From Sediminibacterium goheungense (GTDB lineage Bacteria; Bacteroidota; Bacteroidia; Chitinophagales; Chitinophagaceae), in assembly GCF_004361915.1 (NCBI RefSeq), contig NZ_SNWP01000011.1, positions 868,001-932,000 on the forward strand: a DNA stretch of 64,000 nucleotides. Reading direction: 5' to 3'. The position numbers and the translations under genes are program-made. Numbering within the stretch: the first letter of the stretch is position 1; each line of letters starts with the position of its first letter. Below are positions 9,827 to 29,359 of this stretch, in pieces. The notes beneath the pieces were generated by a model, which was not told the origin of the DNA, searched no databases, and saw nothing but the letters and a program-made list of their open reading frames with translations.

Positions 9827-10717
9827 AATTATTAAATTTGAAATCCAGCTTATTTTAGTATTCACATAAACAAGCGTTTTTGTGGTTAGTCATGTCACTA
9901 TTTAAAAAAGTAATTTTTTCGATGCACATTCATCGATAACAGCCTCAAGCCGACCCTTTGAGTTGCAAATATCCATTTTTTAAACGACAACCCTATCCGG
10001 TTTTTAATTAAAGGCTGTGCCAATAGCAGCTTCAAAGCATAAATCCTGTCTTAAGGTTTTTTTAAGAATAAGATTTTTTAAAGTAATAGGTATAACGAAT
10101 CTGATTTTCGATGACTTTTTTCGATTTGATAAAATAGTCATATCACAACTCAAATTATAACAGTGTTATCTATTTGATAAAGCAATAGTGCGGGGTATAA
10201 AAAGAATGATTTGGTGTTGATTTTTTTAGAATAAGAAGGGGTTGGTATTCCTCCCATTTACAGCAATTATTTCAGGGGAGAGCTATTCAGCTATCAGTTT
10301 TCATTGTAAGGTTTTGGTTTATTTTAGATGGCGAATAGCTGAATAGCTATCCCCGGTAGATAACAATCCTCATATTTTCCAAAAAATCGGCTCTCTGTCA
10401 GACAGTTACTTCTGGTCATCTTTGTTATTGAGAGCAGAGAAGTTAGTTGAACCATATGTTCTTATAAGAAAGATTGTTGATTCTTCTACGATCGAACAGT
10501 AAGAATAATATCAGATATGCGTAGCCGAATTCTCAGCGGGTCATCAATATCCCTCGGACCTTGCTGAAGGCTTTTCTTTCTACCGGTACCGCTGATATTT
10601 AAAAGGTTACGTCTCCAATGCTTATACCAGTCAATTAAATATTTGTGAGATCAACTTACAAAATGGCTTTGAGTAGCATTTGTAGCGTATGATAACAAAA
10701 AATGAAAAGTAGTGTAT
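9827..10717. other. Noncoding interval upstream of the giant adhesin
   Basis: About 890 bp without a convincing gene. It holds an inverted repeat at 10275-10354 (listed separately), a small palindrome (CTGTC-A-GACAG near 10396) and a longer-range complementarity between a CAGCGG segment near 10535 and a CCGCTGAT segment near 10590. The last 150 bp could be a structured 5' leader of the adhesin mRNA. No clean TAnnTTTG box was found close to the adhesin start. Confidence 0.5.
10275..10354. repeat. Interrupted palindrome of octamer words
   Basis: Arms 10275-10294 and 10335-10354 are complementary over 20 bp with one mismatch, separated by 40 bp. The right arm contains GAATAGCT twice in tandem and the left arm its complement. 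It resembles the other word-built palindromes in this window but with period 8. No T-run follows, so a terminator role is doubtful. Confidence 0.75.
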
Positions 10718-13700
10718 ATGCAGATAGCTTATTTCCAAAACATTTTACTGCGAAAAAGATCTATTAGTATTTTTTACAAACATTGCTTTTTTGTGCTACT
10801 GCTTTTATGTAGTAGCTCGATGGTTGTGCAAAGTCAAACGGCTCCAGCCAATATCACTTACAATGGAGGTCTTCAGTGGGTTACACCCTTTGCGACTCGT
10901 ACTACGCCGTTGAACCTTGCGCCTTCAGCAGGTACGGGTGGTACGCCTACTTCTTACAGCATCAGTCCGGCCTTACCACCGGGTTTAAATTTTAATACCA
11001 CCACTGGTGTGATTTCTGGAACGAGATCGGCATTACATGTTGCTACCAGTCATACTATTACGGCTAGTAATGCCTTTGGTAGCACCACGATCGAATTTGC
11101 TATTGCTGTAGATGATGTACCGAATTTTACTGGTATCGGCATTGGCTCAGTAGTGCCCGCTGCATTGTATAGCGTACGCAAAATGAATAGTGGGTATAAT
11201 GGAATGGCTATGTTGGTTAGACGTAACAGCGATAATGCTATTAAACATATTGGATTTACAGCAGAAGGACATCTGGATACGACGGCTTTAAAAAACTTTG
11301 TAGGCACAAGCGCTAACGATTCGGGATTTGTGCAGGTCTGGTATAACCAGAGTGGTTATGGGATTGATTCTGCTCAGTTGAATCCCTCTCGTCAGCCGAT
11401 AATTGTAGGTGCAGGAAGGGTGCTTCGTGGTGGTGGAACTGCCAATAGACCTACATTGGTATTTAATGGAAGCCGCTGGTTAACCAGTAAAGCGAATGTG
11501 CCCATCAGTGGGTTGAGTACGTTTAGTGCCAATGCGGTGGCAGAAATGACAACTGCTGCATTTTATGGTCGGATTATATCTGTGCGTTCGAGTTCTGCAA
11601 GTAGTGATGAAAGTGGTATTGGAAATGCATCATTGCTGAATGTTCATGCATCTAATAATTATCTGGGTTCCATCAGAAATGGAAATTATTTAGGGGATGG
11701 ACCATCTACTTTTTCATTGAATACGCAGTTTACTGCTATGACAATGTTTTCTCCGAGTGGGGGAGGATTTACTGATTCAATAGTGAGTAATTTACGTCCT
11801 ATATCGCGTGTATTAACAACTACTACGGGAGGAAGTGCATTAGGTTCTAATATGATTTTGTCGATAGGATGGAGTAATGTAGCTAATTTCCCGACAAATG
11901 GAGGTAATCCTCTGAATGGTCGAATAGCTGAAGTTATTTTATTGCCATCAATTTTGCCTTTTACACCCAGTACTAATCCGAGAGTAGCATTAGCTAGTAA
12001 TCAAACCAATTATTATGGTATTACGGTTAGTGCGCCAGCAGGTATTGTTTATACATCTTTTAAACATCAACTTGGAAAGGGAATTCCTTTTTATTTACAA
12101 CCATCGAACAGCACTGCCGGTGCGGCTACTTCATTTAGTATTTCTCCGGCATTACCCGCAGGATTAACTTTTAACACTGCTACTGGTATCATCACGGGTA
12201 CACCTACCGTTACATCAGCATTAACAACTTATACGGTTACGGCTTCTAATGCCGCAGGAAATTTTAATACAACTTTTTCATTAACAGTAGCAGATACGCC
12301 CGATTTTGCGGCTATTGGATTATCGGGGGTAACTCCAACGGCCGCGTATAGTTTACGAAAACTGAATGCATCCTATAATGGTCCGGCAATCCATATTCAG
12401 GTAAGGGCTGCCGGTAGTGCATATAATTCTTCTGTATTAGCAAGTGGCGACATCGGCTTTGATGCAAATGGCACATTAGATACGGTTGCTATGAAAACCC
12501 TGGTAGCTTCGAGGGATGCCTACATCGCTTTTTGGTACGACCAGAGTGGTAATAACAGAACCATGCAGATTTACCCGGGAGGCGCCAATGAATACCCGAG
12601 AATTATGGCTGCTGGAGTCATTCATACTTTAAGGGGTCTACCTACACTTGATTTTAACTGGAGTGGTCGTACGGTATTATATACAAATGAGACAACTGTT
12701 ACGAATGCCTTATCTGCCCATGTAAATGGGGTGCTTTCTGCCGAACAATCTGCTGTCAATGCTGCCTTATTAAGTAGTATCAGCAGTACTACGACTGGGG
12801 ATGGAATGATTCTTAGAACGGGACTGAACTTTACAGGCTCTGGCTTTTTAAATAATCCGGGCGGTACAAATATAAACGGAGGTGCTTTTGCAAGTCCAGG
12901 TTCAATACCGGCATTAAATACGCCTTATATAGCTACATTTAAACGCGGAGGTACAACCTCAAGTGGTTATCAAGGTACTGGTGGTATGTGGATAGGGAGA
13001 CAGGCTGGGGGGGGGCATGGATCTATCAATGGGTTTCTGTCAGAACTATTCGTACTGCCTTCCATAACTGAAAATCAAAGAACTTCACTTGAATTAGGTC
13101 AGTCTGCATATTATTTTGGTCAGACCATTACAAGTGTAACTACTACTAATATTTGTAGTGGACAAGCGTTGTCATATACTGCTACGGCTACTGTACCAGG
13201 AACTTTTACATGGTCAAGGGCAGCCGTTGCAGGAATTAGTAATGTTGCCAGCCTGAACAACGTAACAGCCACCATTGCAGAAACGCTTGTGAATACCACC
13301 AATGCTCCTATCATAGTGCCCTATACTATTGCATTTACGGGTTCAGAAACGGGAATAACCAGTACTTATACTTTAGAAGTCACTGTCAATCCCAGACCTA
13401 GTATCAGTGCTGGTACCCTAACAACCTGTAGTGGCGTTGCTTTTAATTTTACACCCACAGGTTCCATTATACCCGTGGGTACCATCTATACCTGGACGAA
13501 TCCCACGATAACGGTTAGTTCAGGTTCAATAACAGGTGGTTCAGCACAGGCGGTTGGACAAGCAACAATAAGTCAACTGTTAACGAGTACTTCGAGCTCT
13601 AATGGAACTGCCAGGTATTTTATTACGCCGGTTGCGGCAAGTTGTGTAGGCACTGCTGTTACCCTTACCGTAACGGTTCAACCACCAGTTACCAATAACA

Positions 13701-16700
13701 CGATTAATAATACAACTGCCACTACCTGTAATGGTGTTACCCCACCCGCTTTTACGGCCAGCACACCCATTGGAGGAACAGGTGCGTACACGTTTTTATG
13801 GCAGAGTAGTACAGATGGAACAAATTTTGTTGCAGCTTCAGGAACAAATAATACGGCTACCTACGCACCAGGGGTACTTACGCAGGATATCTGGTACAGG
13901 CGTATAGTAAGCAGTGGTACCTGTAATGCAAATACATCAAATGCTTTTAAAATTACCGTAAGTGGTCTTCCATTATCTGTTGGAACGCAGCCGGTTGGAA
14001 TAACTGTTTGTAACAATACAAGCACTAATTTAATTGTAGGAGCTGCAGGTGGTTCAGGCAGTTATAATTATCAGTGGTATTTTAACAGTACCAATAGCAA
14101 TACAGGTGGTGTTAGTTTAGGGAATGCTCCTACGGCGCAAACTGCCAGTTATACGGTGCCCGCTTCTGCCACTGCCGGAGATCGGTTTTATTATGTGGTG
14201 ATTACGGATGCCATTTGTGGGATGAATGTTAGTAGTGATGTTGCCACGGTAACTACCCTCGCGGCCTTATCAGTGGGTAGCCATCCTTTAGCAACCCAAA
14301 CAGTTTGCAACAATGTAAGTACAACATTAACAGCAGCGGCTGCTGGAGCTACGGGTACTTATAGCTATCAATGGTTTAGTAATTCAACAAACAGTAATAC
14401 GGGAGGTACGAGTTTGGGAAGTGGTGCAGGTGCTCAAACGGCAACTTACACAGTTCCTGCCACAGCTACTGCAGGGAATCGGTTTTATTATGTAGTATTT
14501 ACAGATGAAACCTGTGGCGTAACCAGAAGCAGTAATACTGCTACGGTAACTACCCGGGCCGCCTTAACAGTGGGTACGCAACCAACCGGTAGAACAATAT
14601 GTAATAATATCAGTACTACTTTATCAACAGCAGGTGCGGGAGCTACTGGTAATTACAGTTTCCAGTGGTTCAGTAATACAACCGGAAGCAATGTGGGTGG
14701 TACAAACCTTGGCAGTGCAGCAGGGGCACAAACCGATACTTATACCGTACCTGCAACAGTTACGGTGGGTACTCGTTTTTATTATGTGGAGATAACAGAT
14801 GCCACATGCGGGGTAACTGTTAAAAGCTCAGCCGCACCTGTGATTACATTAGCTACAGTGGGTTTTACTACACAACCCATCGTTTCTCAGACAATCTGTA
14901 ATAATACCAGCATAGCGCTGACTGTGGGGGCGGTAACAGGTGGTTCTGGTAATTTTAGTATACGTTGGCACAGCAACAGCAGCAATAGTAATACAGGAGG
15001 TACACCAATTGCTCCGGGTAACGGTTCTGGTACGGTGACTTACACTGTTCCGGCTACCACTACAGCCGGTGACAGGTATTTTTATGCAGTGGTAACAGAT
15101 AATAACTGTTCGGTATCTTATAGTAGTGATGCTGCAACAGTAACTACCCGCAGCGCTTTAACGGTAGCAACCCAACCCGCTTCTATACAAACAATCTGTA
15201 ACAATGTGGGTACTACGTTAACAGTAGCGGCTAGTGGGGCATCGGGTAGTTACACCTACCAGTGGTTCAGCAACAGTAGTAACAGCAATACCGGTGGTAC
15301 CAGTTTGGGTAGTGGTTCAGGTGCTCAAACGGCAACTTATAGTGTGCCCGCTACAGCAACACCGGGTGATCGCTTTTATTATGTGGTGATAACAGATGTT
15401 ACTTGTGGAGTAAATATAAGTAGTAATGCTGCTACCATAACTACAAGAACCCCATTAACAGTGGGTACCCAACCACTGACCCAGCTATCTTGTAACAATG
15501 TTCCGGTAACTATTACTGCGGCTGGAGCAGGCGGATCGCTGAGTTATACCTATCAATGGTTTAGTAATAGCAGTTTAAGCAATACAGGCGGAACCTCCAT
15601 TTCAGGAGCCAATTCAGCTTCTTATATAATACCAGCCAGTGCTGTAGAAAGTGAACAACGTTATTTTTATGCAGTTATCACGGATGCAATTTGTATGGTG
15701 TCTGTTCCTACACAGGCTGCAAGGGTAACTACAGGTGGCGCATTGACTATTCTTTCTCAGCCCACCTCTCAAACACTCTGTAATAACACTGCGGTAGGAG
15801 TTACTGCATTGGTTACCGGAGGATCATTAAGTTATACCTATCAATGGTTTAGCAACAGTACGCTGAGTAATACCGGAGGAACTGTTATTGCAGGCGCAAA
15901 CGCAGCTAATTATACTATACCCGGTACAGCAACAGCAGGAGATCGTTACTACTATGCTGTTATCACTGAAAACAGTTGTGGTCAGCAATTAGTAACAAAT
16001 CCTTTTACCATCACAACACGTCCTTTATTGACTGTGGGTGTAACACCGGCTAACCAAATAATTTGTAATAATACAACCATTGATGTGCAAACAGCAGGTG
16101 CTGGAGGATCAGGAGTATATATCTATCAATGGTATAACAATACAAGTCTCAGCAATACAGGAGGTACAAATTTAGGTAGCGTACAAGGTGCCAATACTAA
16201 CACTTACAGTATACCTGCTACAACTGTTGCAGGCGAGCGATATTATTATGTAGAGATCAGGGATGCCGGTTGTGACCAGTTGGTTAGAACCAATGCCTTT
16301 AAGATTACTACAGGTCAGGTATTAAGTGTTCAAGCTCAACCTCAGTCTCAGGTAGTTTGTAATAATAGCACAGCAAATATTTCTGTATTACCATCAGGAG
16401 GTACAGGTCTTTATACTTACCAATGGTTCAGTAATACTGTTAACAGTAATACAGGCGGAATCAACCTCGGCAGCAGTTCTGGCGCGCAAACAAGCAATTA
16501 TACTGTGCCAGGTACGACCGTTTCCGGCGATCGCTTCTATTATGTAGTTATTACAGATGCGAGCTGCGGTGCAACCATTAGAAGTAATGCAACAAGAATA
16601 ACTACCGGAGTAGCTTTGTCTGTAGGCACACAGCCTGTTTCTCAAATAGTATGTAATAATACAAGCGTTGCAATTAATACAACAGGCGCTGGTGCTTCAT

Positions 16701-19700
16701 TAAGTTATACTTACCAGTGGTATAGCAATGCCTCTAACAGTAATACAGGGGGTACGCTGATTACTGGAGCCAACGCTTCCAGCTATACGGTACCTGCTAC
16801 ACTTACTGCAGGCGATCGTTTTTATTATGCAGTAATTACAGATGCAAGTTGTGGGTTACAGGTGACTACTACCGTGGCTACCATAAATACCCGTAGTGCA
16901 TTAGTGGTAAATACACATCCTTTATCACAAACAATATGTAACAATGTAACTATTGATTTACCTGTATCTGTATCTGGTGGATCAGGCACTTATACTTATC
17001 AGTGGTATAGTAATACTGTTAACAGTAATAGTGGAGGAACAAGTCTGGGTAGCCTATCAGGTGCCAATAGTTCCATTTACACCATTCCTGCTATTGCGGT
17101 ATCCGGCAATCGATATTATTATGCTGTAATTACAGATACAGAATGTGGAGTATCTGTTACGACCAATGCGGCAACTATTTTTACCAGAACTGCCTTGACT
17201 GTTGGTACGCAACCTCAATCAGTACAAACAATTATTAATAATACCACAACCAATATAACGGTAGCTGGTGGAGGTGCAACAGGGGCATATAATTATCAAT
17301 GGTACCAATCACTTTCCAGAACTAATACAGGTGGTTCTATCATTGGCGGTGCTACTGGAGCAACCTTTACTGTTCCGGCAACAGCAATAGCAGGCAGTAG
17401 GTATTTCTACGCAGTAATAACAGATGCAGGCTGTGGTACTAACATATCTTCAGACGTAGCAGAAGTTATTACGACGGGAACGCTAACTATTAGTTCACAA
17501 CCTCTTTCGCAAACTGTATGTAATAATACCTCCACTACTTTGTCTGTTTTGGCTGCTGGCGGTAGCACATCATTTATTTATCAATGGTATAGCAATATTA
17601 TCAACAGTACAACAGGGGCTACTTTAATCAATGGTGCAACAAATCAAAATTATACTGTACCTGCTTCTAATCTGGTAAATGACAGGTACTTCTATGTGGT
17701 AATTACAGATGCCAATTTAGGTAACACAATTACCAGCGATATAGCAAAAATTACTACACGTTCGGGTACACCGGTAATTGTAAATACCCAACCCGCTGCA
17801 GTTAGTGCCATATGTTTAAATGGTACGGTTAGTCTGCAAGTAGGTGCTATAGGCGGTGCCTCAGGTACTTTTGTTTACCAGTGGTATAGTAATAATGTAG
17901 CTTCCAATACGGGAGGTACACTGATACCAGGTCAAACAGGAACTAGTTTTTCAACTTCTCTGAATTCACTGGACACCCGTTTTTACTATGCAACGGTGGC
18001 AGACCCAACTTGTGGTACCGGGGTGCCAAGTAATGTTGCAACAGTAAATGTTAGAGCTCTACCTTCGGTATCTGTTGTACCACTGCAGCAAACAGTTTGT
18101 TTAAATGCAGGTGCTCTAACTGCAGACGCAACGGTTGCCGGTGGAGCCGGATCTGTATCTTATCAATGGTATTCAAATACCACTAATTCAACAGTTGGTG
18201 GTACAAGTCTGGGAACAGATAATGGCGCAAGAACCTTATCGTTTACACCATCAGCTTCTTCACTGGGTACTATGTATTACTATGTGGAAGCCAATTTTTC
18301 TGGTAATGGTTGCGGTGTGGTAAAAAGTAATACTCATCAGGTTACAGTTAATTATGTTGCGTTGCCTTCTGATATTGTAATAACAACCCCTAACTTAAAT
18401 CTGTGTAAAGGACTCTCTACTAGTCTTAAAGCTTCACTATCTGCTACCAGTACTATTCAGGATCCTGTATTTAACTGGTATGCCGATGCGAATTTTACGA
18501 TATTACTGGGTACCGGAACCGATTTTGTTACACCGGTTTTAAATAATACAACTACTTACTATGTAAAAGTAAGTGGTAGTAATGCCTGTGAAAACCTGCC
18601 GGGCAATGGTCAGTCTCAAACAATTGCAGTAACTGAACAGGCTCCGGAGGTGATTCTGCCAGCTAACCTTACAGTTTGTGCCGGAGTAAACACTTCACAG
18701 ATAGCTTTTTCTTCTACTGTTTCAGGAACTACTTATACCTGGACAAATAATAATACATCTATAGGGCTTGCAGCATCAGGTAATGGAAATATTCCTTCTT
18801 TTCTAACAGTAAACAGCAATCTTACAAACAGGGTAGCTGGTATTTCTGTAACACCTTTTGCAAACGGATGTGTAGGAGTAACTAAAACTTTTACCATAAC
18901 GGTGGTGCCGAATGCATTGGTGAATGATACTTCATTTATTGTTTGTAGTGCAGCGCCATTGAATTATACACCTGTAAATGTTCCCTCAGGAAAGAAATAC
19001 AGCTGGGTAGTGTCATCAGTACCTCCAACTATAACAGGTGCTTCCGATAACCTTATACCAGTTTCTTCATTTTCGCAAACACTTTCAAGCACCAGCGCAA
19101 CACCTGTGAACGTAGTATATGCGGTAACACCGGATGGCTGTAGCGACAGAACTTTTACAGTAACAATAACAGTTAATCCTGTTCCGCAGATTAATAATCA
19201 ATCTCTGACCAGCGCTATCTGTAATGGTGCCGGATTTACTACATCAAATTTTGCAGGTATTGTACCAGAAGGAACTTTATATACCTGGACTATACCTACA
19301 TCAAATCCTTTGGGAGCCGTAACCGGAGGCAATGGCCAGTCAATAAAACAATCTGTGGTGAATGAAAATAACTTATTTCACAGCAGGTCAGATATTGCCA
19401 ATGCAATTTACCTTATTACACCGTTTAGTTCTGCTGTATTGGGAGGATGTGTGGGTCAGTCATTTACTTTAACGGTACCTGTAAATCCTAAACCGGTTTT
19501 AGTAACAACGAGCGCAGGTTCTATTTGTAATCGTACTGCAGCCGTTTACACTCCTTCTTCTCTTACTGCAGGCGTTTCTTATACATGGAGAAGACTGGTA
19601 CAACCCAATATTTCAAATGAAGCGGCCAGTGGTGTGAATGGTTTTTCAGAAGTACTTCACAATACCGCAGCATTCCCTGTGCTGGTTGATTATGAATATA

Positions 19701-22700: not shown

Positions 22701-23791
22701 TTAAGGTAACAGTTAAACCCAGTCCAACAGTAAATATAATGTCTGATCAGTTGGTTTGTAAAGATGCAAGAACACAGGTAATTCAGTTTACAGGGGTTCA
22801 ACCCAATACTATTTTTAACTGGACAAATACGGAAACTGGTATTGGTTTGGCAGCATCCGGAACTGGTAATATTCCTTCATTCATTGCTACAAACAGAGGT
22901 TCATTGCCATTATCAGCTACTATTGATGTAGTACCTGAGTTGAATGGCTGTAAAGGAGCTTCTGCCAGTGTATTAAGATTCACAGTAAATCCAGGTATTA
23001 GCTCACAGTTTATCGAATCAGCTCCTCTCGCAGCTTGTCCTAATGAATTAGTGGGTCCTTTGATTGCCAGTTATCCAAATGGCGGTGATGGAGTTAATTA
23101 TGCTTTTCAATGGATGGTTTCTACTGACAGACTTAACTATACACCCATTACAACCAGTGGCGCAAATAACCGGCGATTCTTTGCCCAGGCACAAACAAAA
23201 GATACCTGGTATAAAATGATGGTAAGCTCAGGTGGATGTACTGCATATACTGATTCTGTTAAAGTAAGAATGGGTGTTGCTCCAGTAGTAACGGTAAGTA
23301 ATAAGGATAACTACACAATAAGTATCGGAAATGCTACACAGTTGGTAGCCGAAGGAGCTACTTCGTATATATGGACTCCACGTTCGTATATAAGTGATGC
23401 CTTTATATCGAATCCTTTGGTGAGCCCGTTAACTGATAATTTCCGTTATGTTGTAACGGGTATAAATAGTGATGGATGTACAGATACAGCTAGTGTTATC
23501 ATTAAGGTTACCGAAGGGTATTCTATTACACCAAATAATATTCTTACGCCTAATAACGATGGATATAATGATTTGTGGGTTATTAAGAATATTCAACATT
23601 ACTCCACTCACAGAATTTCTATCTACAATGCAAACGGCAGCTTAATTAAAACACCGTGGGTTAATAATTATGTGAGTTGGGATGGTAAAAATGATGCTGG
23701 CGTAACTGTGCCTGCAGGCACCTACTATTATGTAATTGATTTGGGTAGTGGTAAGGCTCTTATTAAAGGCTCTCTTACCATTATCTACTAA
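10718..23791 (+). CDS. Giant multidomain T9SS adhesin (about 4357 residues)
   Basis: The ATG at 10718 is preferred over an in-frame GTG at 10712. A long signal peptide (~1-40, ending VQSQ) leads. Residues ~42-140 and ~450-530 are putative Ig (He_PIG-like: ISPALPPGLNFN, GVISGT). Each precedes a domain like the arabinofuranosidase-B catalytic/LamG-type fold (AYSLRKLNASYNG, DIGFDANG, WYDQSG). About 15 Ig-like repeats of ~97 residues occupy ~1085-2548 (CNN ... YQWYSN ... RFYYVVITDA-C). About 17 PKD-like domains fill ~2550-4250. The end (~4269-4357) is a type-B T9SS sorting domain (SITPNNILTPNNDGYND, DGKNDAGVTVPAGTYYY). It should be a surface-exposed adhesin or gliding-type filament, comparable in layout to SprB-class proteins. 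A PorP/SprF gene follows after 32 bp, the usual partner for type-B cargo. Substrate and catalytic activity of the arabinofuranosidase-like domains are unproven. Confidence 0.93.
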   Translation: MQIAYFQNILLRKRSISIFYKHCFFVLLLLCSSSMVVQSQTAPANITYNGGLQWVTPFATRTTPLNLAPSAGTGGTPTSYSISPALPPGLNFNTTTGVISGTRSALHVATSHTITASNAFGSTTIEFAIAVDDVPNFTGIGIGSVVPAALYSVRKMNSGYNGMAMLVRRNSDNAIKHIGFTAEGHLDTTALKNFVGTSANDSGFVQVWYNQSGYGIDSAQLNPSRQPIIVGAGRVLRGGGTANRPTLVFNGSRWLTSKANVPISGLSTFSANAVAEMTTAAFYGRIISVRSSSASSDESGIGNASLLNVHASNNYLGSIRNGNYLGDGPSTFSLNTQFTAMTMFSPSGGGFTDSIVSNLRPISRVLTTTTGGSALGSNMILSIGWSNVANFPTNGGNPLNGRIAEVILLPSILPFTPSTNPRVALASNQTNYYGITVSAPAGIVYTSFKHQLGKGIPFYLQPSNSTAGAATSFSISPALPAGLTFNTATGIITGTPTVTSALTTYTVTASNAAGNFNTTFSLTVADTPDFAAIGLSGVTPTAAYSLRKLNASYNGPAIHIQVRAAGSAYNSSVLASGDIGFDANGTLDTVAMKTLVASRDAYIAFWYDQSGNNRTMQIYPGGANEYPRIMAAGVIHTLRGLPTLDFNWSGRTVLYTNETTVTNALSAHVNGVLSAEQSAVNAALLSSISSTTTGDGMILRTGLNFTGSGFLNNPGGTNINGGAFASPGSIPALNTPYIATFKRGGTTSSGYQGTGGMWIGRQAGGGHGSINGFLSELFVLPSITENQRTSLELGQSAYYFGQTITSVTTTNICSGQALSYTATATVPGTFTWSRAAVAGISNVASLNNVTATIAETLVNTTNAPIIVPYTIAFTGSETGITSTYTLEVTVNPRPSISAGTLTTCSGVAFNFTPTGSIIPVGTIYTWTNPTITVSSGSITGGSAQAVGQATISQLLTSTSSSNGTARYFITPVAASCVGTAVTLTVTVQPPVTNNTINNTTATTCNGVTPPAFTASTPIGGTGAYTFLWQSSTDGTNFVAASGTNNTATYAPGVLTQDIWYRRIVSSGTCNANTSNAFKITVSGLPLSVGTQPVGITVCNNTSTNLIVGAAGGSGSYNYQWYFNSTNSNTGGVSLGNAPTAQTASYTVPASATAGDRFYYVVITDAICGMNVSSDVATVTTLAALSVGSHPLATQTVCNNVSTTLTAAAAGATGTYSYQWFSNSTNSNTGGTSLGSGAGAQTATYTVPATATAGNRFYYVVFTDETCGVTRSSNTATVTTRAALTVGTQPTGRTICNNISTTLSTAGAGATGNYSFQWFSNTTGSNVGGTNLGSAAGAQTDTYTVPATVTVGTRFYYVEITDATCGVTVKSSAAPVITLATVGFTTQPIVSQTICNNTSIALTVGAVTGGSGNFSIRWHSNSSNSNTGGTPIAPGNGSGTVTYTVPATTTAGDRYFYAVVTDNNCSVSYSSDAATVTTRSALTVATQPASIQTICNNVGTTLTVAASGASGSYTYQWFSNSSNSNTGGTSLGSGSGAQTATYSVPATATPGDRFYYVVITDVTCGVNISSNAATITTRTPLTVGTQPLTQLSCNNVPVTITAAGAGGSLSYTYQWFSNSSLSNTGGTSISGANSASYIIPASAVESEQRYFYAVITDAICMVSVPTQAARVTTGGALTILSQPTSQTLCNNTAVGVTALVTGGSLSYTYQWFSNSTLSNTGGTVIAGANAANYTIPGTATAGDRYYYAVITENSCGQQLVTNPFTITTRPLLTVGVTPANQIICNNTTIDVQTAGAGGSGVYIYQWYNNTSLSNTGGTNLGSVQGANTNTYSIPATTVAGERYYYVEIRDAGCDQLVRTNAFKITTGQVLSVQAQPQSQVVCNNSTANISVLPSGGTGLYTYQWFSNTVNSNTGGINLGSSSGAQTSNYTVPGTTVSGDRFYYVVITDASCGATIRSNATRITTGVALSVGTQPVSQIVCNNTSVAINTTGAGASLSYTYQWYSNASNSNTGGTLITGANASSYTVPATLTAGDRFYYAVITDASCGLQVTTTVATINTRSALVVNTHPLSQTICNNVTIDLPVSVSGGSGTYTYQWYSNTVNSNSGGTSLGSLSGANSSIYTIPAIAVSGNRYYYAVITDTECGVSVTTNAATIFTRTALTVGTQPQSVQTIINNTTTNITVAGGGATGAYNYQWYQSLSRTNTGGSIIGGATGATFTVPATAIAGSRYFYAVITDAGCGTNISSDVAEVITTGTLTISSQPLSQTVCNNTSTTLSVLAAGGSTSFIYQWYSNIINSTTGATLINGATNQNYTVPASNLVNDRYFYVVITDANLGNTITSDIAKITTRSGTPVIVNTQPAAVSAICLNGTVSLQVGAIGGASGTFVYQWYSNNVASNTGGTLIPGQTGTSFSTSLNSLDTRFYYATVADPTCGTGVPSNVATVNVRALPSVSVVPLQQTVCLNAGALTADATVAGGAGSVSYQWYSNTTNSTVGGTSLGTDNGARTLSFTPSASSLGTMYYYVEANFSGNGCGVVKSNTHQVTVNYVALPSDIVITTPNLNLCKGLSTSLKASLSATSTIQDPVFNWYADANFTILLGTGTDFVTPVLNNTTTYYVKVSGSNACENLPGNGQSQTIAVTEQAPEVILPANLTVCAGVNTSQIAFSSTVSGTTYTWTNNNTSIGLAASGNGNIPSFLTVNSNLTNRVAGISVTPFANGCVGVTKTFTITVVPNALVNDTSFIVCSAAPLNYTPVNVPSGKKYSWVVSSVPPTITGASDNLIPVSSFSQTLSSTSATPVNVVYAVTPDGCSDRTFTVTITVNPVPQINNQSLTSAICNGAGFTTSNFAGIVPEGTLYTWTIPTSNPLGAVTGGNGQSIKQSVVNENNLFHSRSDIANAIYLITPFSSAVLGGCVGQSFTLTVPVNPKPVLVTTSAGSICNRTAAVYTPSSLTAGVSYTWRRLVQPNISNEAASGVNGFSEVLHNTAAFPVLVDYEYTLTANGCSNTQIVQVLVNPDPLLSSPTSLNVCSGALLNYTPSSLTTGTSFTWSRAVVAGIRNLSNAGTSDIFEALVNTSNDPVEVTYRFTLTANGCTHNEEVRVTVNPIPAIADITQQAVCSGTPVQVNFTGSQVAGTVYNWTNGNSNIGLASSGTGNILFTTANTSNQLQTASISVVPVANGCSGSAKNFNILVQSPLTLSSSTTPSAICTNTAFVYTPESNAPNVSFSWSRAFVNGISNGAATGNGIIREILVNNSTVPVKVTYEMTLTANGCNSTQLISVTVNPIPAVSNITDKVVCNGSSVEINFTGSPVAGTAYNWTNTNSNIGLASSGTGNILFTATNISTRVLTGSLSVTPVANGCSGPAKSFAIQVQPTLVLTSSTAPLPICTNTEFIYVPESNAENVSFSWSRALVNGISNGAATGTGTIRETLINDSNVPVKVSYEITITANGCTSIQLISVTVNPMPTMNDIAENTVCNGAAVEISFNGSPVAGTLYNWTNSNSNIGLPSSGTGNILFTATNLSTQLLTGSLSVVPVVNGCSGAAKTFNIKVQPTLSLSSSATPPAICSNTVFSYQPQSVTTGVSFSWSRAIVNGISNTVASGTGKIEETLINNTNTAIQVPYEITITSTNGCSAKKMIVVTVNPTPSVANVSNRILCNNSVAVINFSGSSVNNTNYRWTNDNTDLGILSEGLNDIFFVATNTTNKPIVSNLVVTPEAGFCKGSPITFTITINPSLKLKTATSLPAVCSNQLLTYEPLVEGNSNAVISWTRPSVFGISNRAASGTGLISERLVNTTSLPVLVTYVITIASEGCSSTENVSVLINPAINITNAGSGFSICSKEAFLFSPVLSVSGAQLTWAREAVPGISNAAGTGVGDIAEVLVNTTSVPVDVLYKYTISQSSACVADQFVKVTVQPQPQLISSKVLEVCSNVSVGYSPESNLTGTNFTWNRPAITGIANSASGGIGIIGESLVNRTNQSIVVTYQINMNNINACSNTDSIKVTVKPSPTVNIMSDQLVCKDARTQVIQFTGVQPNTIFNWTNTETGIGLAASGTGNIPSFIATNRGSLPLSATIDVVPELNGCKGASASVLRFTVNPGISSQFIESAPLAACPNELVGPLIASYPNGGDGVNYAFQWMVSTDRLNYTPITTSGANNRRFFAQAQTKDTWYKMMVSSGGCTAYTDSVKVRMGVAPVVTVSNKDNYTISIGNATQLVAEGATSYIWTPRSYISDAFISNPLVSPLTDNFRYVVTGINSDGCTDTASVIIKVTEGYSITPNNILTPNNDGYNDLWVIKNIQHYSTHRISIYNANGSLIKTPWVNNYVSWDGKNDAGVTVPAGTYYYVIDLGSGKALIKGSLTIIY
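13970..18360 (+). repeat. About 15 Ig-like repeats within the adhesin
   Basis: Each ~290-bp unit begins with LxVGTQPxSQT(V/I)CNN, has YQWYSN and SNTGGT in the middle, and ends RFYYVVITDAxCG followed by a short strand. The two conserved cysteines per unit probably form an intradomain disulfide. Units at about 17190 and 17480 break the rule in opposite ways (see findings). DNA identity between units is moderate, so the array is older than the 177-bp array at the start of the window. Confidence 0.9.
20030..21660 (+). repeat. Higher-order repeat of a two-domain PKD-like unit (~540 bp)
   Basis: Two PKD-like domain types alternate: one with NFTGSPVAGTxYNWTN and NIGLxSSGTGNI, the other with CTNTxFxYxPES and FSWSRAxVNGISN. 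The pair recurs at about 20030, 20570, 21110 and 21650, showing duplication of domain pairs rather than single domains. The first three pairs are closely similar and the fourth is more diverged. Confidence 0.8.
23524..23791 (+). other. Type-B T9SS C-terminal sorting domain of the adhesin
   Basis: The last ~88 residues carry the gliding-motility-associated C-terminal pattern: PNNILTPNNDGYNDLWVI, then ISIYNANGSLI, SWDGKNDAG, VPAGTYYYVI and a final beta-strand. Domains of this class direct cargo through the type IX translocon and are typically handled with a PorP/SprF-like protein, which is the next gene. Confidence 0.9.
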
Positions 23792-23823
23792 ATAACAATT
23801 TTGAAATAACCAAAACTAAGTGT

Positions 23824-24744
23824 ATGAAATGCAGAAATACATATTTACTAATTGCCTCGCTAGTCATTATGAATAGCGTTGTTACTGGTCAGACTGGCTA
23901 TTTTGTATCCGGTATTTTTTCCAATAAAATGTTATTTAATCCATCTCAGGCTGGATTAAGGGGCGCGGGTGATATTCATGTCATTTTTAAAACGGCAATG
24001 GATAACTCGCAATCAGGCTTAGCACGTGAAATGGTAGTTACTGGAGATATTCCTGTATCTCAGTCGGCAGGAGTAGGATTTGTTTTGCAAAATCAGTCTG
24101 CAGGTTTATTGAAACAGACTGTGTTTAATTTTTGTTACGCTTATGGTATCAAGTTTCGGGAAGATTTTAAACTTCGCTTTGGTATTGGTGCAGGTTTTAA
24201 AAATATAAGGGCACAAACTAATAGTTCATCACTTGAAAGTATTGTTGGCGATCCAAACGATCCGGCGCTTACTGCGTACAATAGTATACCTCCTTCGTTT
24301 TACAACGTATTTAGTGTCAGCGCAAATATGAAAAATATAGAGTTGCAACTCGTAGCTCCTAATCTGACAGCAGCCATACAGAATAAAAGTTTGCAAAGAC
24401 TTGATTATGTACAGTTTCAGGGTGGGATAAGTTATGCAAAACAAATCGGGGGCGGAAATTTATTGAATAATGAGTCGAGCCTACGTGTATTCGGTGGTGC
24501 AATGATGTATAAACAATCAGGTACATTGATTATGGGTGGTATTGAGTTAAATGCAAACGGCTATTTAACTGCAAATGCAATGTATAATAGCACAGGCGTA
24601 ATGACTGGTGGATTGGGCGTTGTGTTAGATAAGTCGGTGCGAATAGGTATCAATTATTCGATTGGCGGTTTGTATTCAAGAACCATTTATGGTGGTGCTG
24701 GAGTAGCAGAATTGCATGTTGGGTATTTATTTAAAAAGAAATAA
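23824..24744 (+). CDS. PorP/SprF family type IX secretion membrane protein
   Basis: The 306-residue protein has an N-terminal signal peptide (ending VTGQ) and the family hallmark after it: YFVSGIFSNKMLFNPSQAGLRG. Alternating hydrophobic segments and a terminal aromatic strand (AELHVGYLF) fit an outer-membrane barrel of the PorP/SprF type. Members usually sit directly downstream of a large type-B sorting-domain protein and are needed for its secretion or surface attachment. That is the arrangement here, with 32 bp between stop and start. It is followed after 14 bp by a GldL-like gene, so adhesin, barrel and motor genes probably form one operon. Confidence 0.92.
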   Translation: MKCRNTYLLIASLVIMNSVVTGQTGYFVSGIFSNKMLFNPSQAGLRGAGDIHVIFKTAMDNSQSGLAREMVVTGDIPVSQSAGVGFVLQNQSAGLLKQTVFNFCYAYGIKFREDFKLRFGIGAGFKNIRAQTNSSSLESIVGDPNDPALTAYNSIPPSFYNVFSVSANMKNIELQLVAPNLTAAIQNKSLQRLDYVQFQGGISYAKQIGGGNLLNNESSLRVFGGAMMYKQSGTLIMGGIELNANGYLTANAMYNSTGVMTGGLGVVLDKSVRIGINYSIGGLYSRTIYGGAGVAELHVGYLFKKK

Positions 24745-24758
24745 GTAAAAGTAAAATT

Positions 24759-25412
24759 ATGAAAAGGAAAGAGTTAGATATTTTCAATTTTTTCTACAGT
24801 ATAGGTGCTGTAGTAATCCTGATAGGAGTAATAGCAAAATTTATGGAATGGAAATTACAGGATGAATTATTATTATCAGGTTTAGGTGTTGAGATATTGG
24901 TATTTGCTATGTCGTCTATACAGTTTAAAAGAGAAGAGAAAAAATACAGCTGGGAGCGATTATTTCCTGAGTTGGTTGATAATGCATCTGCACCATCTAG
25001 CTTACAAGGTATACAAAAAAGCGTAGAGGAGTTGGCGGGTCGTTATTATAAAGGCATGAATGAGTATGTAGAACGATTTGAATCATTGAATACAGATATG
25101 ATCAAGGGAAGTGGACAGTATCAGGAATCATTAAACAGTATATCACTGCACCTGGCTGAGTCCGCACATGCATTCAGCGCTTTTAAAGATAATGTATCGA
25201 TGGTAACAGCTTCATTTGTAGAACTACATGCTATTAGTACCGATATTCATGAGTTGCAGGTAAATCTTCAGAAGATGGCAGCCATATCTATTATCTCGGG
25301 TGATAAGCTGAGCCTGTTTCAGGAACAGATGGATGCACTGAATGATGCGATATACCGATTTAATGCATTGTCTTCAGGAATTATTCATCAGTTCAAACAG
25401 ATAGGAGATTAA
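24759..25412 (+). CDS. gldL: GldL-like T9SS inner-membrane motor protein
   Basis: The 217-residue protein has two N-terminal membrane helices (~8-29 and ~38-55) and a cytoplasmic, largely helical tail, as in GldL/PorL. Within helix 1, Y13 and K27 fall at the positions discussed for the GldL proton-motive motor. Helix 2 has a membrane glutamate (E45 in GVEILVFAMSS), slightly earlier because the loop is short. GldL with GldM converts proton-motive force into motion for T9SS and gliding. Here it is not next to gldK or gldN but follows a PorP/SprF gene, so it is probably a paralogue of a core copy elsewhere in the genome. The GldM-like gene starts 3 bp after its stop. Confidence 0.85.
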   Translation: MKRKELDIFNFFYSIGAVVILIGVIAKFMEWKLQDELLLSGLGVEILVFAMSSIQFKREEKKYSWERLFPELVDNASAPSSLQGIQKSVEELAGRYYKGMNEYVERFESLNTDMIKGSGQYQESLNSISLHLAESAHAFSAFKDNVSMVTASFVELHAISTDIHELQVNLQKMAAISIISGDKLSLFQEQMDALNDAIYRFNALSSGIIHQFKQIGD

Positions 25413-25415
25413 AGC

Positions 25416-26879
25416 ATGGCGGGAAAAATTAACCATAACCGATATCGGTTGATCACCTTGTTGTATGTAATATTCGTCTGTTTATCAGTATTAAATATTC
25501 CATTTAGTTTACTGGATTCTAATTTGTACCTCATCCGTACAATGGAGCAACAGGAACAGGACCGTTTATTGCAGGTAAATTTTGCCAACAGGGTAATATC
25601 AACACACAGAGAACAATTAAACGGTGATACCACACAGTCATATCTACGAATTAAAGACCGCATAAATGACAGCTACAAATGGGCAGATAGTTTAGACCAA
25701 TTAATACTTAATGGCTTGAAGAAGGAGGGCAGCAGCATAGAATCTGAGTTCAGCAGTAAACGTAAGATTGGAGATCTGATGCAGAAAGATTCATTGATAT
25801 ATAGATTCAGGGAAGAATTGTTTGATTTGAATAAATACATATTAGCCCAACCATTTTTTCTGGATAGTTCTTATTCCAGATTGTTGCCGGCACGGGAAAA
25901 CCTGGTTGCACAGTCGGGTAAGGCAATTCGTTGGGAGTCGTACTTTTTTTTACATAAACCAACAGCGATCAACTATACGCAGGTAAAGCGTATTAAGTTA
26001 CTGTTGCTGGATTTGGTATATAATTATCAGTTGGCGGCACTGAGGTCAATAGACTATTACCCTGCCTTTTATTCCAGAAAGGAAAACCGCGTATTTATAG
26101 ATAAGCGTGAGGGTGCGATGGAATTCAGTGAAAATAAGCAATTAAAGGAGCAGACCATAACACAGCGGGTTAGCACCCCATCATCAGCTGTAAATGAATT
26201 TGGACAAGCGGCCGAAGAAAAAAGAAAAGAGTCAGAAACAAATCTGAAAGAGTCATCATCAAAAGAGAATCTTGAACAGATATATCAGGCAATATTTTCT
26301 TCTTTGCAAACTGAAAATCTGTTTGTAGGCATACGTAATGTGGTTTTAAAAAATATGTCACCCCTATTACAGAGTCAGGTCTCAGTTAGTATGAGTCCAC
26401 AGACTGATTTACAGCAATCCGGCGATGACTATATAGTACTGTTCAGTCGTTCCGGAGACTATCGACTATCATTTATAGACAAACGTGAAGGAGCAACTAA
26501 TGGGAAAGTGTTATTTGAGAAACGGATTCATGCGTCCTTATTACCCAGCCCGATCATCCGGTTGAATACAGAGAGCAGTACAAAAGATATATTAAGTGTA
26601 CGTGATTTGTTTTCATTGAATCGTTTGGTGGCTACAATGGATATTGCCGGCCAGTCATCTTTTCCCGGTAGAATAAATGGATTCAGGTTGACACGAATAG
26701 CAAAAAGCGGCGAGCAGCAGACAGCATACAATTATGGAGAAGTATTCAGAGGGCAGGTGCAGGAAATGCTGAGCAGCCTTAAGAAAGGAGATATAGTATT
26801 TTTTGACAACATTACAATATCACTGGCCGACGGTACAACCCGCACGCCCAACCCGATTTTGTATAAAATAGTGGAATGA
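25416..26879 (+). CDS. gldM: GldM-like T9SS motor/periplasmic shaft protein, D2 domain not seen
   Basis: The N-terminus (MAGKINHNRYRLITLLYVIF) has the GldM look: a short cytoplasmic lead and one membrane helix (~13-33). Residues ~35-220 are helical (D1-like). Residues ~225-300 are a charged, low-complexity linker (EEKRKESETNLKES) where D2 would be expected. Residues ~300-380 resemble D3 (FVGIRNVVLKNMSP, GDYRLSFIDKREG). Residues ~385-487 resemble D4, with GFRLTRIAKSG, KKGDIVFFDNI and a closing PILYKIVE. The total of 487 is shorter than the ~515 usual for GldM. It is translationally packed between the GldL-like gene (3 bp) and the next gene (1 bp). Assignment rests on termini, size and context; the middle is too diverged to be sure by eye. 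Confidence 0.78.
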   Translation: MAGKINHNRYRLITLLYVIFVCLSVLNIPFSLLDSNLYLIRTMEQQEQDRLLQVNFANRVISTHREQLNGDTTQSYLRIKDRINDSYKWADSLDQLILNGLKKEGSSIESEFSSKRKIGDLMQKDSLIYRFREELFDLNKYILAQPFFLDSSYSRLLPARENLVAQSGKAIRWESYFFLHKPTAINYTQVKRIKLLLLDLVYNYQLAALRSIDYYPAFYSRKENRVFIDKREGAMEFSENKQLKEQTITQRVSTPSSAVNEFGQAAEEKRKESETNLKESSSKENLEQIYQAIFSSLQTENLFVGIRNVVLKNMSPLLQSQVSVSMSPQTDLQQSGDDYIVLFSRSGDYRLSFIDKREGATNGKVLFEKRIHASLLPSPIIRLNTESSTKDILSVRDLFSLNRLVATMDIAGQSSFPGRINGFRLTRIAKSGEQQTAYNYGEVFRGQVQEMLSSLKKGDIVFFDNITISLADGTTRTPNPILYKIVE

Positions 26880-26880
26880 T

Positions 26881-29082
26881 ATGCGATTAATACGATTATA
26901 CTTGTTAGTAGCCATAGCTATGCTGTATGTATCAGACATAGTAGGTCAGGATACCTTGCGGGGAAGTTATAATGTGCTGCGTTTACGGCCTGGTGTATTT
27001 TATGCAACAGGAACTGTAACGGTTCGTGATAGTCTGATTATAGAACCCGGAACGCGTATATATCTTGGCTCAGGTGTCTCTGTTCTTGCAGAAGGAGCAG
27101 TTCATATGGAAGGGAAAGCAGGTAGCGTGATAGAGTTGTTGAGTATTCCCGAACAAAGTGGTCAGGGACTAGTGATTATTGGTCAGCATAAAGGTGATGT
27201 GATTATAAGGAATTGTAGTTTTAGTAATCTGATGCTACCACTTGATTTCGAATTTGGATGGAGCAGGGGCAAAGCAGAAGTTACAAACAATGAGTTTGTT
27301 CGTAATGCTGGTCCGGTAGCCGTACTGCAGGTATTGAATGCGGGAAACCCTTTAGCCGGAGATATAACAGGCACCGAGATGTTAATCCGTGGTAATCTGT
27401 TTGCAGAAAACAGATCGGCTGTATATATTCAGGATTTTATGAATGAGCAATTACGCTTGAGGATAGAAGATAATGCATTTGTGAGTAACCGTATACAAGA
27501 GTATGGTAAATACACATTCTCAAGTAATATACTATTTGGCCGGATGGATAAGTTGTATCGGAAGAATCCGCCTGTCATTAATGGGAATAGTTTTGTAAAT
27601 AATTATTTGTGGGATAATGCTTCAGACAGCATGGTTCATCATGCGAATATAGGGGTGTATGGAAGTATGGATAGTGTCCGGATAACCGATAACTACCTGG
27701 GCGGAAAAGATGAAAATAAGAATCGACAGGGGATTTATGATTATCTGGTCAATTACACATCGCCTAAACTCCTGACTGAGTCAAATGCATTATTTCCCTC
27801 CGATCGTGTTCCACCACACATATATAACAGTTATCGTTTGCCAGCTCGTGAACAACAAAGAGTAAATTACCTGATACGAGACGGTCAATGGCGCATAGTA
27901 ATCGATAGTATAGGAACAGATATCGATGATAATTTTGATTTGAGTAAAGGAATGCAGGTATTGAAATTGTTGGTTAACCGAAAAGTAGATATATCTCAGG
28001 CAAAAGTAATCTACACCTATATGTCAGATTCGCTCAAGGCAATAGATACTCTATTCAATTGTAAAGTGGAACTTGAGCGGGATAGAGATGTACTGGTGGA
28101 GTTTAGCTATCGTCAGGATAGTATGTTAAGGCGCCATAATGGTTACTTATTAATAAAAGGAGTAACTGGTGAAAATGGAGAATATGTTCCAGAATTGAGT
28201 ATCGGTTACTTGCATTACCTCGCATTATATCGTGAAGCAAAAGCAATGGCAGAGTTGCGGAAAAAGCGAACTGAACTAAAGGACAGCGTAAATCAGGTAA
28301 AAATAAAACCTGAATTGAAACTAAGCCAGGAACGATATAAAAAATCCTATGAGATTGGCTTTATGGGTGGGTATGCTTTATACTATGGAACATTGTCGAA
28401 CAGATCCTTATTTAAAAACGACTTTAATGGAGGTCTTGGTGTAGAATTTCGTTATGCAATGAAGAATAATATTTCTGTAAGCTTAGGGATGATGCGAATT
28501 AAGTTGACGGGTTCAGACCTGCGTTCAGATGATCCGCTGAAGATTGCGCGGGGAATGTCATTTATAACACCTGTAACAGCTATTAGTGCTCAGGTAGAAT
28601 ATAGTTTATATGATACTCGCTATTACTATCGGCATGGACGTAAGCTGAATGCGTCAATCGGATTTGGAATTGATTATATCAGTTTTAATCCAAAGGGAGA
28701 ATATTTAGGAAAACTCTATGATTTACAACCATTGGGTACCGGTGGTCAGCGGTTAAGTGGCGCTACCAATGCCCCTTATGCTTTAAAAAGTTTCGGAGCA
28801 CCTATTACAGCAAAATTGCGTTATACGATTAATAGAAAGGTAGTCTATTCTGTTTTCGCCAGTTACCACATGACATTCACAGATTATCTGGATGACGTTG
28901 GTGCTGATGCTTATCCCGACCCCATCGCTATTGCCGCCGCCAATCCATCAAATCCTGACGCAGCTGCTTATTTCAGTAATCCAACCAAAAGGATAGTGAA
29001 TAAAGGACAGTTACGCTCAGGTTCCAGCGGAGGGTCAGATGGCTTTTTTACAGTTGGGTTCGTATTGGCGTATCATTTTTGA
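26881..29082 (+). CDS. Beta-helix plus outer-membrane barrel protein of the T9SS-like locus
   Basis: The 733-residue product has a signal peptide (ending IVGQ). Residues ~30-300 look like a right-handed parallel beta-helix (RPGVFYATGTVTVRDSLIIEPGTRIYLGSG, IRNCSFSN, VTNNEFVRNAG, IRGNLFAENRSA). A linker with helical charged residues (~440-480) follows. Residues ~485-733 form a barrel-like region (YEIGFMGGYALYYGTLSN, GLGVEFRYAMKNN, ending FFTVGFVLAYHF) resembling DUF6089-type outer-membrane proteins. It starts 1 bp after the GldM-like gene, where GldN stands in the canonical operon. It may anchor the motor or the adhesin at the outer membrane. No homology to GldN is visible. The exact role is unknown. 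Confidence 0.8.
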   Translation: MRLIRLYLLVAIAMLYVSDIVGQDTLRGSYNVLRLRPGVFYATGTVTVRDSLIIEPGTRIYLGSGVSVLAEGAVHMEGKAGSVIELLSIPEQSGQGLVIIGQHKGDVIIRNCSFSNLMLPLDFEFGWSRGKAEVTNNEFVRNAGPVAVLQVLNAGNPLAGDITGTEMLIRGNLFAENRSAVYIQDFMNEQLRLRIEDNAFVSNRIQEYGKYTFSSNILFGRMDKLYRKNPPVINGNSFVNNYLWDNASDSMVHHANIGVYGSMDSVRITDNYLGGKDENKNRQGIYDYLVNYTSPKLLTESNALFPSDRVPPHIYNSYRLPAREQQRVNYLIRDGQWRIVIDSIGTDIDDNFDLSKGMQVLKLLVNRKVDISQAKVIYTYMSDSLKAIDTLFNCKVELERDRDVLVEFSYRQDSMLRRHNGYLLIKGVTGENGEYVPELSIGYLHYLALYREAKAMAELRKKRTELKDSVNQVKIKPELKLSQERYKKSYEIGFMGGYALYYGTLSNRSLFKNDFNGGLGVEFRYAMKNNISVSLGMMRIKLTGSDLRSDDPLKIARGMSFITPVTAISAQVEYSLYDTRYYYRHGRKLNASIGFGIDYISFNPKGEYLGKLYDLQPLGTGGQRLSGATNAPYALKSFGAPITAKLRYTINRKVVYSVFASYHMTFTDYLDDVGADAYPDPIAIAAANPSNPDAAAYFSNPTKRIVNKGQLRSGSSGGSDGFFTVGFVLAYHF

Positions 29083-29359
29083 AGTATGTTATCCCAAAGC
29101 CTTAATAGAAATGTAATGCTTTCAGCTCATTATCTTTTATTAGTAAAACCGGTAAGGTATTGTACAGGAAACAATAATGCTTATAACCATCGAAATTTAC
29201 AAGATCATATATGGGGTGAATAAGTTAGATTAGATCTATTAATGGCTGAAATAAGGGGTACTTACACGCTAACACAAACTTTATCTGAATAGTAGGTATG
29301 TATAATGTAGAAACGGACCGAATCCATATATCAATTCGATTGATATACAAAAAAGTGAA

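Follow-up and report, generated by a model that had tools for sequence, protein, structure and literature searches.

Within the window, a stretch of 64,000 nucleotides from Sediminibacterium goheungense (contig NZ_SNWP01000011.1 of assembly GCF_004361915.1, positions 868,001 to 932,000), five co-directional genes on the plus strand at 10712-29082 encode a type B cargo of the type IX secretion system (T9SS), a PorP/SprF carrier, an accessory GldL (GldL'), an accessory GldM (GldM') and a fifth protein, which we name BHG for its beta-helix and PorG-like barrel. The five genes and their intergenic gaps of 32, 14, 3 and 1 bp, as described in the initial annotation, were borne out by the list of open reading frames and by family profiles. 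It is an open question how the motion of GldM is conveyed to the outer membrane; open points are raised in parts of PMC13104615, and recent work assigns the transfer to a GldK/GldN(/GldJ) track that holds PorG and SprF by disulfide bonds (passages of PMC12635249). Our analyses show a second conserved GldLM pair with a fixed outer-membrane partner, BHG, and without track genes or track tethers. We propose, with a probability of roughly one half, that this is a track-independent GldLM motor that would act through BHG and is here joined to one adhesin.

GldL' (24759-25412, plus strand; 217 amino acids), assigned by profile matches and alignment, scores 63.1 bits (E 2.7e-17) on the Pfam profile GldL_N (PF22827), above the cut-off of 24, and lies narrowly under the NCBIfam equivalog cut-off of TIGR03513 (62.1 against 68.3 bits), which GldL' of a relative from family f21 (L190) passes with 108.9 bits. 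GldM' (25416-26879, plus strand; 487 amino acids), assigned by profile matches, a structure model and alignment, matches GldM_4th (PF12080) at residues 377-485 with E 2.1e-7, above the Pfam cut-off. It lies widely under the equivalog cut-off of TIGR03517 (14.9 against 180 bits), and L190 GldM', at 173.8 bits, is likewise under it. Among solved structures, the single GldL' sequence matches five GldL/PorL chains (best E 1.4e-8), and a profile of five accessory GldM proteins matches PorM/GldM near full length (7cmg, E 6.2e-29; 6ys8, E 9.7e-20); the single GldM' sequence gave no significant match to solved GldM (E 0.25). Foldseek searches with the GldM' model, which is poor (predicted local distance difference test score, pLDDT, of 56.3), returned PorM/GldM as the best matches. 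An assignment of the two proteins to unrelated families, which the initial annotation had named as the outcome that would overturn its proposal, is ruled out by the Pfam matches together with the profile and sequence matches to solved GldL and GldM/PorM, and it is near certain that the pair belongs to the GldLM motor family.

The motor residues are retained as well. GldM' is laid out as a transmembrane helix carrying Arg9 (25440-25442), a helical region, a low-confidence linker and C-terminal beta domains that include GldM_4th. The N-terminal arginine of GldM has a role in the motor, and it is present in all 14 accessory GldM' proteins aligned. Glu45 of GldL' (24891-24893) is the equivalent of E49 in Flavobacterium johnsoniae GldL, a residue essential for the core motor (passages of PMC8986121), and alignment finds this glutamate of transmembrane helix 2 in 13 of 13 accessory GldL' proteins. 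E59, given in the same passages as a movement-only residue of F. johnsoniae GldL (PMC8986121), is not diagnostic, as by reading of the alignments the position holds K or Q in the window's GldL' and L in the core GldL of the same genome. By homology, GldL'M' would form a 5:2 proton motor, with a pentamer around a dimer and proton-driven motion.

Three relatives carry a GldL' of 504-517 amino acids (L065:12702-14255, L076:2348-3895 and L077:7053-8567), with a C-terminal extension far exceeding a normal GldL; the L065 extension, the one of the three examined, gave no additional Pfam match. In the part of PMC9389320 that discusses GldLM among 5:2 motors, the anchoring of GldL is described as unknown, and the long extension might provide the anchoring that GldL is presumed to require. 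Residues 41-215 of GldL' also match inside frames of about 1200 amino acids with E of about 1e-4 to 5e-4 (G031:C1:544771, G125:C6:656183 and G192:C4:40306), possibly through coiled-coil similarity.

The genome (3.86 Mb in 18 contigs, 99.91% complete) holds two GldL_N and two GldM_4th matches by profile search. The separate core gldKLMN operon that the initial annotation had proposed to look for was found on the same contig (L063), with K, L, M and N all above their NCBIfam equivalog cut-offs, and the genome further encodes a separate standard PorG (140 bits on NF052316, above 130) and one SprA (two pieces of one frame). Since the full core gldKLMN, the PorG and the single SprA stand elsewhere, GldL'M' is a second motor, and a relocated core pair is ruled out. 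The core operon encodes K and N with L and M, and the window module encodes neither. Accessory and core proteins of this genome are 19% identical in GldL (197 columns) and 14% in GldM (465 columns). In a GldM tree of 40 rows (12 accessory, 28 core or core-like; 62 rows less truncated copies, near-copies and some others), a single branch divides accessory from core with support of 99/98 and in 99% of 200 bootstraps; a second tree with the left-out rows added (14 against 36, including the stray GldM-like proteins of L049, L062 and L073) recovers the same split (98/96, 97% of bootstraps). These identities and the separate side of the GldM trees rule out a recent duplicate of the core. Two further GldM-like finds are a 552-residue protein that by eye resembles a membrane peptidase of the M56/BlaR1 type and ends like GldM (L073:8630-11040), and adjacent proteins of 223-242 amino acids with GldM C-terminal-type domains (L072:4114-5524).

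The motor pair has a constant companion. With a BHG profile and two candidates scored per genome, full-length BHG (E below 1e-200) was found in 12 of 396 genomes from the order, and one genome has it twice; the profile matches 392 of the 396, and the others among the matches listed cover mainly the barrel, at E 1.2e-57 or weaker. Full-length BHG occurs in all seven sampled f21 genomes, in the one genome sampled from each of f13 (G206) and f15 (G208), and in three of f1; within f1 it was found in 4 of 394 genomes, the fourth being G075. Two further loci, L076 and L077, were among the best 80 of 545 relatives in GTDB contigs, and together these make up the 15 BHG genomes considered below. Phylum-wide, the N-terminal half of BHG is full-length in 1 of 395 genomes, the window's own, and 61 other genomes match by fragments only (E 1.9e-15 or weaker). 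In the samples searched, the module is thus limited to this order and two unplaced Bacteroidetes metagenome-assembled genomes.

A complete GldL'-GldM'-BHG series is found in 12 of the 15 genomes (the window, G401, G362, G251, G227, G261, G214, G277, G239, G206, L076 and L077). In two of the remaining three (G271 and G208) the contig breaks off behind GldM', and in the third, G075, a 255-residue gene and a PorP stand between GldL' and GldM' and the BHG lies in pieces on two contigs. Because order, strand and short gaps (-1 to 65 bp, on a single strand) are kept in 11 of 11 measured loci of the 12 complete ones, the linkage exceeds chance. The unit recurs in families f1, f13 and f21. A survey for the five-gene order, as suggested in the initial annotation, found it in no other of the 15 BHG genomes in the stretches covered, which rules out conservation of the five genes as one system; what is conserved is GldL'-GldM'-BHG.

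BHG (26881-29082, plus strand; 733 amino acids) scores 26.5 bits on DUF6089 (PF19573), above the cut-off of 23.2, and its C-terminal half reaches 69.4 bits on PorG NF052316, under the cut-off of 130. An AlphaFold2 (AF2) model, computed from an alignment of the window, L076 and L077 proteins with 29 barrel-only relatives (mean pLDDT 75.2, predicted template modelling score 0.46), predicts a beta-helix plus barrel architecture: an N-terminal signal-peptide-like helix, a beta-helix at residues of about 23-300 (26947-27780), a weak segment over residues 302-350, a domain rich in beta structure over 360-442, an extended helix over 443-470 and, between 489 and 732 (28345-29076), eight long strands. 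The barrel resembles OmpA/OmpW/OmpX-type barrels in PDB matches, so that by model and matches BHG ends in an 8-stranded outer-membrane barrel as in PorG. Residues of about 22-292 match beta-helix proteins with VIA Z up to 19.5, and the fold is not recognised by Pfam Beta_helix, which gave matches in 2 of 12 members only (best E 0.27). This extra N-terminal region is present in all 12 aligned BHGs. Because the strand number is even and the C-tail of PorG is periplasmic (passages of PMC12635249), both barrel ends, and hence the predicted beta-helix, would lie in the periplasm. In G251 (L069:3989-10056), two tandem BHG genes follow GldL'-GldM', each with a DxDxDG-type repeat tail past the barrel.

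Neighbouring genes were searched with our own profiles for PorP, the type B tail, GldK and GldN in 16 module stretches (2.5-19.9 kb each) and the window. Neither GldN nor a true GldK was found in these 16 stretches and the window; the sole match to the GldK profile, in L064 on the strand opposite to GldL' and some 6 kb away from it, is an FGE-sulfatase protein (71.6 bits against a cut-off of 350) and was rejected. Within the stretches covered, a PorP stands in the module in 2 of the 15 genomes (the window and G075) and a type B adhesin beside it also in two (the window and G208). In G208 (family f15), the same-strand frame behind BHG (L192:627-4196) encodes a type B protein in which CHU_C and five stretches of SprB repeats were recognised (56.0 bits on TIGR04131), and there is no PorP on the rest of the contig. 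The frame is split into two or more pieces over L192:627-7108, with a separate upstream piece of 779 amino acids (L192:4769-7108) that starts like a secreted protein; the genome is 57% complete, and the pieces may be one gene interrupted by assembly error or real decay. The adhesin link to the module thus has one parallel, in a different family and at a different position, and in the G208 lineage, too, the module is perhaps joined to a type B adhesin. Type A tails were found by Pfam near the module in L076, L077, L186 and L190, and type A-like tails by our own profile in L187 and, weakly, in L065, a raw six-genome count without a background rate. Long secreted-looking proteins lie 3' of the module at L076:10220-15556 (no Pfam match) and L077:14470-18588 (DUF5907 repeats).

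The giant cargo of the window (10712-23791, plus strand) runs to 4359 amino acids from a GTG at 10712 or 4357 from an ATG at 10718, contains PKD_5 and Ig_7 domains, and ends in a type B sorting domain (residues 4275-4357, 23534-23782) that matches CHU_C (PF13585, E 3.3e-17) and TIGR04131 (51.4 bits, above cut-off). The adjacent carrier (23824-24744, plus strand; 306 amino acids, ending in GYLFKKK) matches PorP_SprF (PF11751) with E 6.1e-21, above the Pfam cut-off, and scores 65.2 bits on TIGR03519, under 90.55; the two form a type B cargo with its PorP/SprF-type carrier side by side. The genome counts seven PorP/SprF proteins and 14 CHU_C matches, 13 of them above cut-off. Apart from the PorP of the module, five form a pair with a type B gene (L233-L237) and one is unpaired (L238); region reading and the genome-wide GldL_N and GldM_4th matches place no GldL or GldM beside any of the six. 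In L233, a second giant adhesin of 4086 amino acids is followed by its PorP and by a TPR-PD40-OmpA protein of the PorE type. Of the dedicated or alternative motor for one cargo that the initial annotation had envisaged, the alternative motor stands, with a separate core and a second GldLM, and the link to the adhesin gains from the five other type B-PorP pairs without an adjacent GldL/GldM and from the G208 parallel. As a rule, dedication to one cargo finds no support, as PorP and type B adhesin each occur beside the module in 2 of 15 genomes, within the stretches covered, while GldL'-GldM'-BHG recurs in three families; it is valid at most for some lineages. The defining partner of the system is the fifth protein, BHG, which played no part in that argument.

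In the moving track, PorG and SprF are disulfide-bonded to GldK by C-tail cysteines, and the tip of PorM has been modelled on PorN (passages of PMC12635249). A Cys occurs within the last 25 residues in the PorG of this genome and in 75 of 89 barrel-only BHG relatives, a set defined by profile rather than by proof that each is a PorG. The window BHG has no such tail cysteine; 13 of 15 complete BHGs carry no Cys in the last 40 residues (the other two are both from G251, in the repeat tails), and the C-terminal piece of G075 has none in its last 45. The window PorP lacks the Cys-Xaa-Cys C-tail of mobile SprF-type carriers (PMC12635249), and neither module PorP (window and G075) has a tail cysteine, which is present in five of the genome's six other PorPs; the exception is the L233 PorP beside the PorE-like gene. 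Type B cargo is tied to PorP-like carriers, and PorE-linked carriers were postulated to be immobile (parts of PMC9143113); F. johnsoniae encodes GldO, a paralogue of GldN, and several homologues each of PorE and SprF (parts of PMC9127263). The core GldK of the genome carries a cysteine in KKGCLL, matched without alignment and taken as the counterpart of the published RGCF motif.

As the most parsimonious mechanism, we surmise the following course of events. Proton flow through GldL', by homology a pentamer, and the GldM' dimer would set the periplasmic arm of GldM' in motion. In the core system, the GldM arm tip is thought to push GldN, a component of the GldK/GldN(/GldJ) track that carries PorG and SprF on disulfide bonds; here the track would be bypassed, with the outer end of GldM' acting on the predicted periplasmic beta-helix of BHG. 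Built onto a PorG-like barrel, the beta-helix could pass force straight to the outer membrane, so that BHG would replace the track plus PorG. In the window, a PorP/SprF carrier and a giant type B adhesin are joined to the module, which probably drives movement of the adhesin or contributes to its placement, and secretion would still proceed via the single SprA translocon and the core motor. Topology, the GldM'-BHG contact, track independence and action on the adhesin are all put forward as parts of this proposal. More tentatively, the module may be a trackless Bacteroidota motor, an old offshoot of the energy chain of gliding/T9SS that conveys GldLM force to the outer membrane through BHG and whose role in some lineages is to move or display an adhesin of its own.

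Several points weigh against a track-independent motor acting through BHG. The lack of cysteines is compatible with track contact, as SprF and PorG retain disulfide-independent interactions (passages of PMC12635249), and 14 of the 89 barrel-only relatives, as well as the PorP of the other giant adhesin (L233), also lack a tail cysteine. The adhesin and the PorP each stand beside the module in just two of the 15 genomes, the 15 BHGs include close copies (L186-L188 and L190) and so do not count as independent, and members may have been missed as the BHG searches scored 2-3 candidates per genome. Some accessory GldM branches are long, several rows are of unusual composition, and the GldM' model is poor. 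The case draws on sequence and on models of single proteins.

As an alternative, GldL'M' might drive the core track itself, with GldM' pushing core GldK/GldN under some conditions and BHG serving as a PorG paralogue that couples the translocon to a second motor for particular carriers. The C-terminal domain PF12080 kept by GldM', which in PorM contacts PorKN (passages of PMC8986121), the PorG-type barrel of BHG and the single SprA of the genome would all fit, but the module stretches hold no GldN and no true GldK, GldM' shares only 14% identity with core GldM, BHG and the module PorP lack the tail cysteine, and all 12 aligned BHGs carry an N-terminal region that PorG lacks; we regard this as unlikely. 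It is more improbable still that the module powers an outer-membrane process that has nothing to do with T9SS cargo, such as Tol/Ton-like handling of envelope or glycans, with the beta-helix as a binding domain and the adhesin next to it by accident. The scarcity of type B adhesin and PorP beside the module (each 2 of 15) and the beta-helix fold, like that of polysaccharide lyases, epimerases and tailspikes, speak in its favour; yet the short gaps bind all five genes, a type B adhesin also lies behind BHG in G208, type A-like tails occur near the module in six further genomes (the raw count given above), and the beta-helix matches are generic to the fold. A degenerate, functionless duplicate of the core motor, to which the scores under the NCBIfam equivalog cut-offs might point, is hardly credible, being already contradicted by conservation: intact frames, motor residues and gene order are kept across several families, and BHG is present in 7 of 7 sampled f21 genomes.

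Around the five genes, promoter-like sites in 23600-29500 are at chance level (19, against 22.4 in shuffles), and no terminator-like sites were found in that interval (3.4 in shuffles). LuxR-type response regulators flank the block at 7529-8167 (plus strand) and 29360-29995 (minus strand), kinase genes lie at 8214-8921 (plus strand) and 8930-9865 (minus strand), and proteins with TIG and FG-GAP repeats are encoded upstream at 3867-5462 and 5734-7317.

Among the papers listed by full-text searches of open-licence PubMed Central (PMC), none could be recognised as a description of a GldLM accessory to the core and lacking K/N, or of a PorG with a beta-helix. In the related genomes examined, the second GldLM pair comes with an unusual barrel protein in place of the GldK/GldN track, which suggests a route, so far undescribed in those papers, by which motor force would be conveyed to the outer membrane. 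If the track-independent reading is true, GldLM serves beyond the core T9SS, and the module would offer a natural system for testing motor-to-membrane coupling without a track.

Compared with known systems, the window shares with SprB-SprF and other type B cargo-PorP pairs a type B sorting domain and a PorP/SprF side by side, but its carrier has no tail cysteine and no adjacent PorE-like gene, and has a GldLM pair and BHG instead. PorG (NF052316, with a DUF6089 barrel) is an outer-membrane barrel of eight strands with homology to the C-terminal half of BHG; it stands alone (284 amino acids in this genome), and its cysteine C-tail is bonded to GldK/PorK, whereas BHG lacks such a tail and has a large N-terminal beta-helix region. 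Extra motor genes are also known from the same order of bacteria: G050 has a second gldKLMN cluster (L075:4701-9570) with a short GldL of 163 amino acids and a 228-residue barrel-like protein behind it, in addition to its core gldKLMN in L074, and extra GldL/GldM (L068:8783-17552) or GldM/GldN genes (L071:8404-15942) lie directly beside core gldKLMN. Unlike GldL'M', these extra genes are encoded with K and/or N and group with core GldM in the tree. The closest relative is core GldLM/PorLM (6ys8, 7sat, 7sau, 7sax and 7saz), which has in common with GldL'M' the conserved Glu of GldL, the N-terminal Arg and transmembrane helix of GldM, the periplasmic arm, a D4-type end and gene adjacency; GldL'M' differs from it in having no adjacent gldN or true gldK, in its scores below the NCBIfam equivalog cut-offs for the window proteins, in its separate place in the GldM trees and in its fixed partner BHG.

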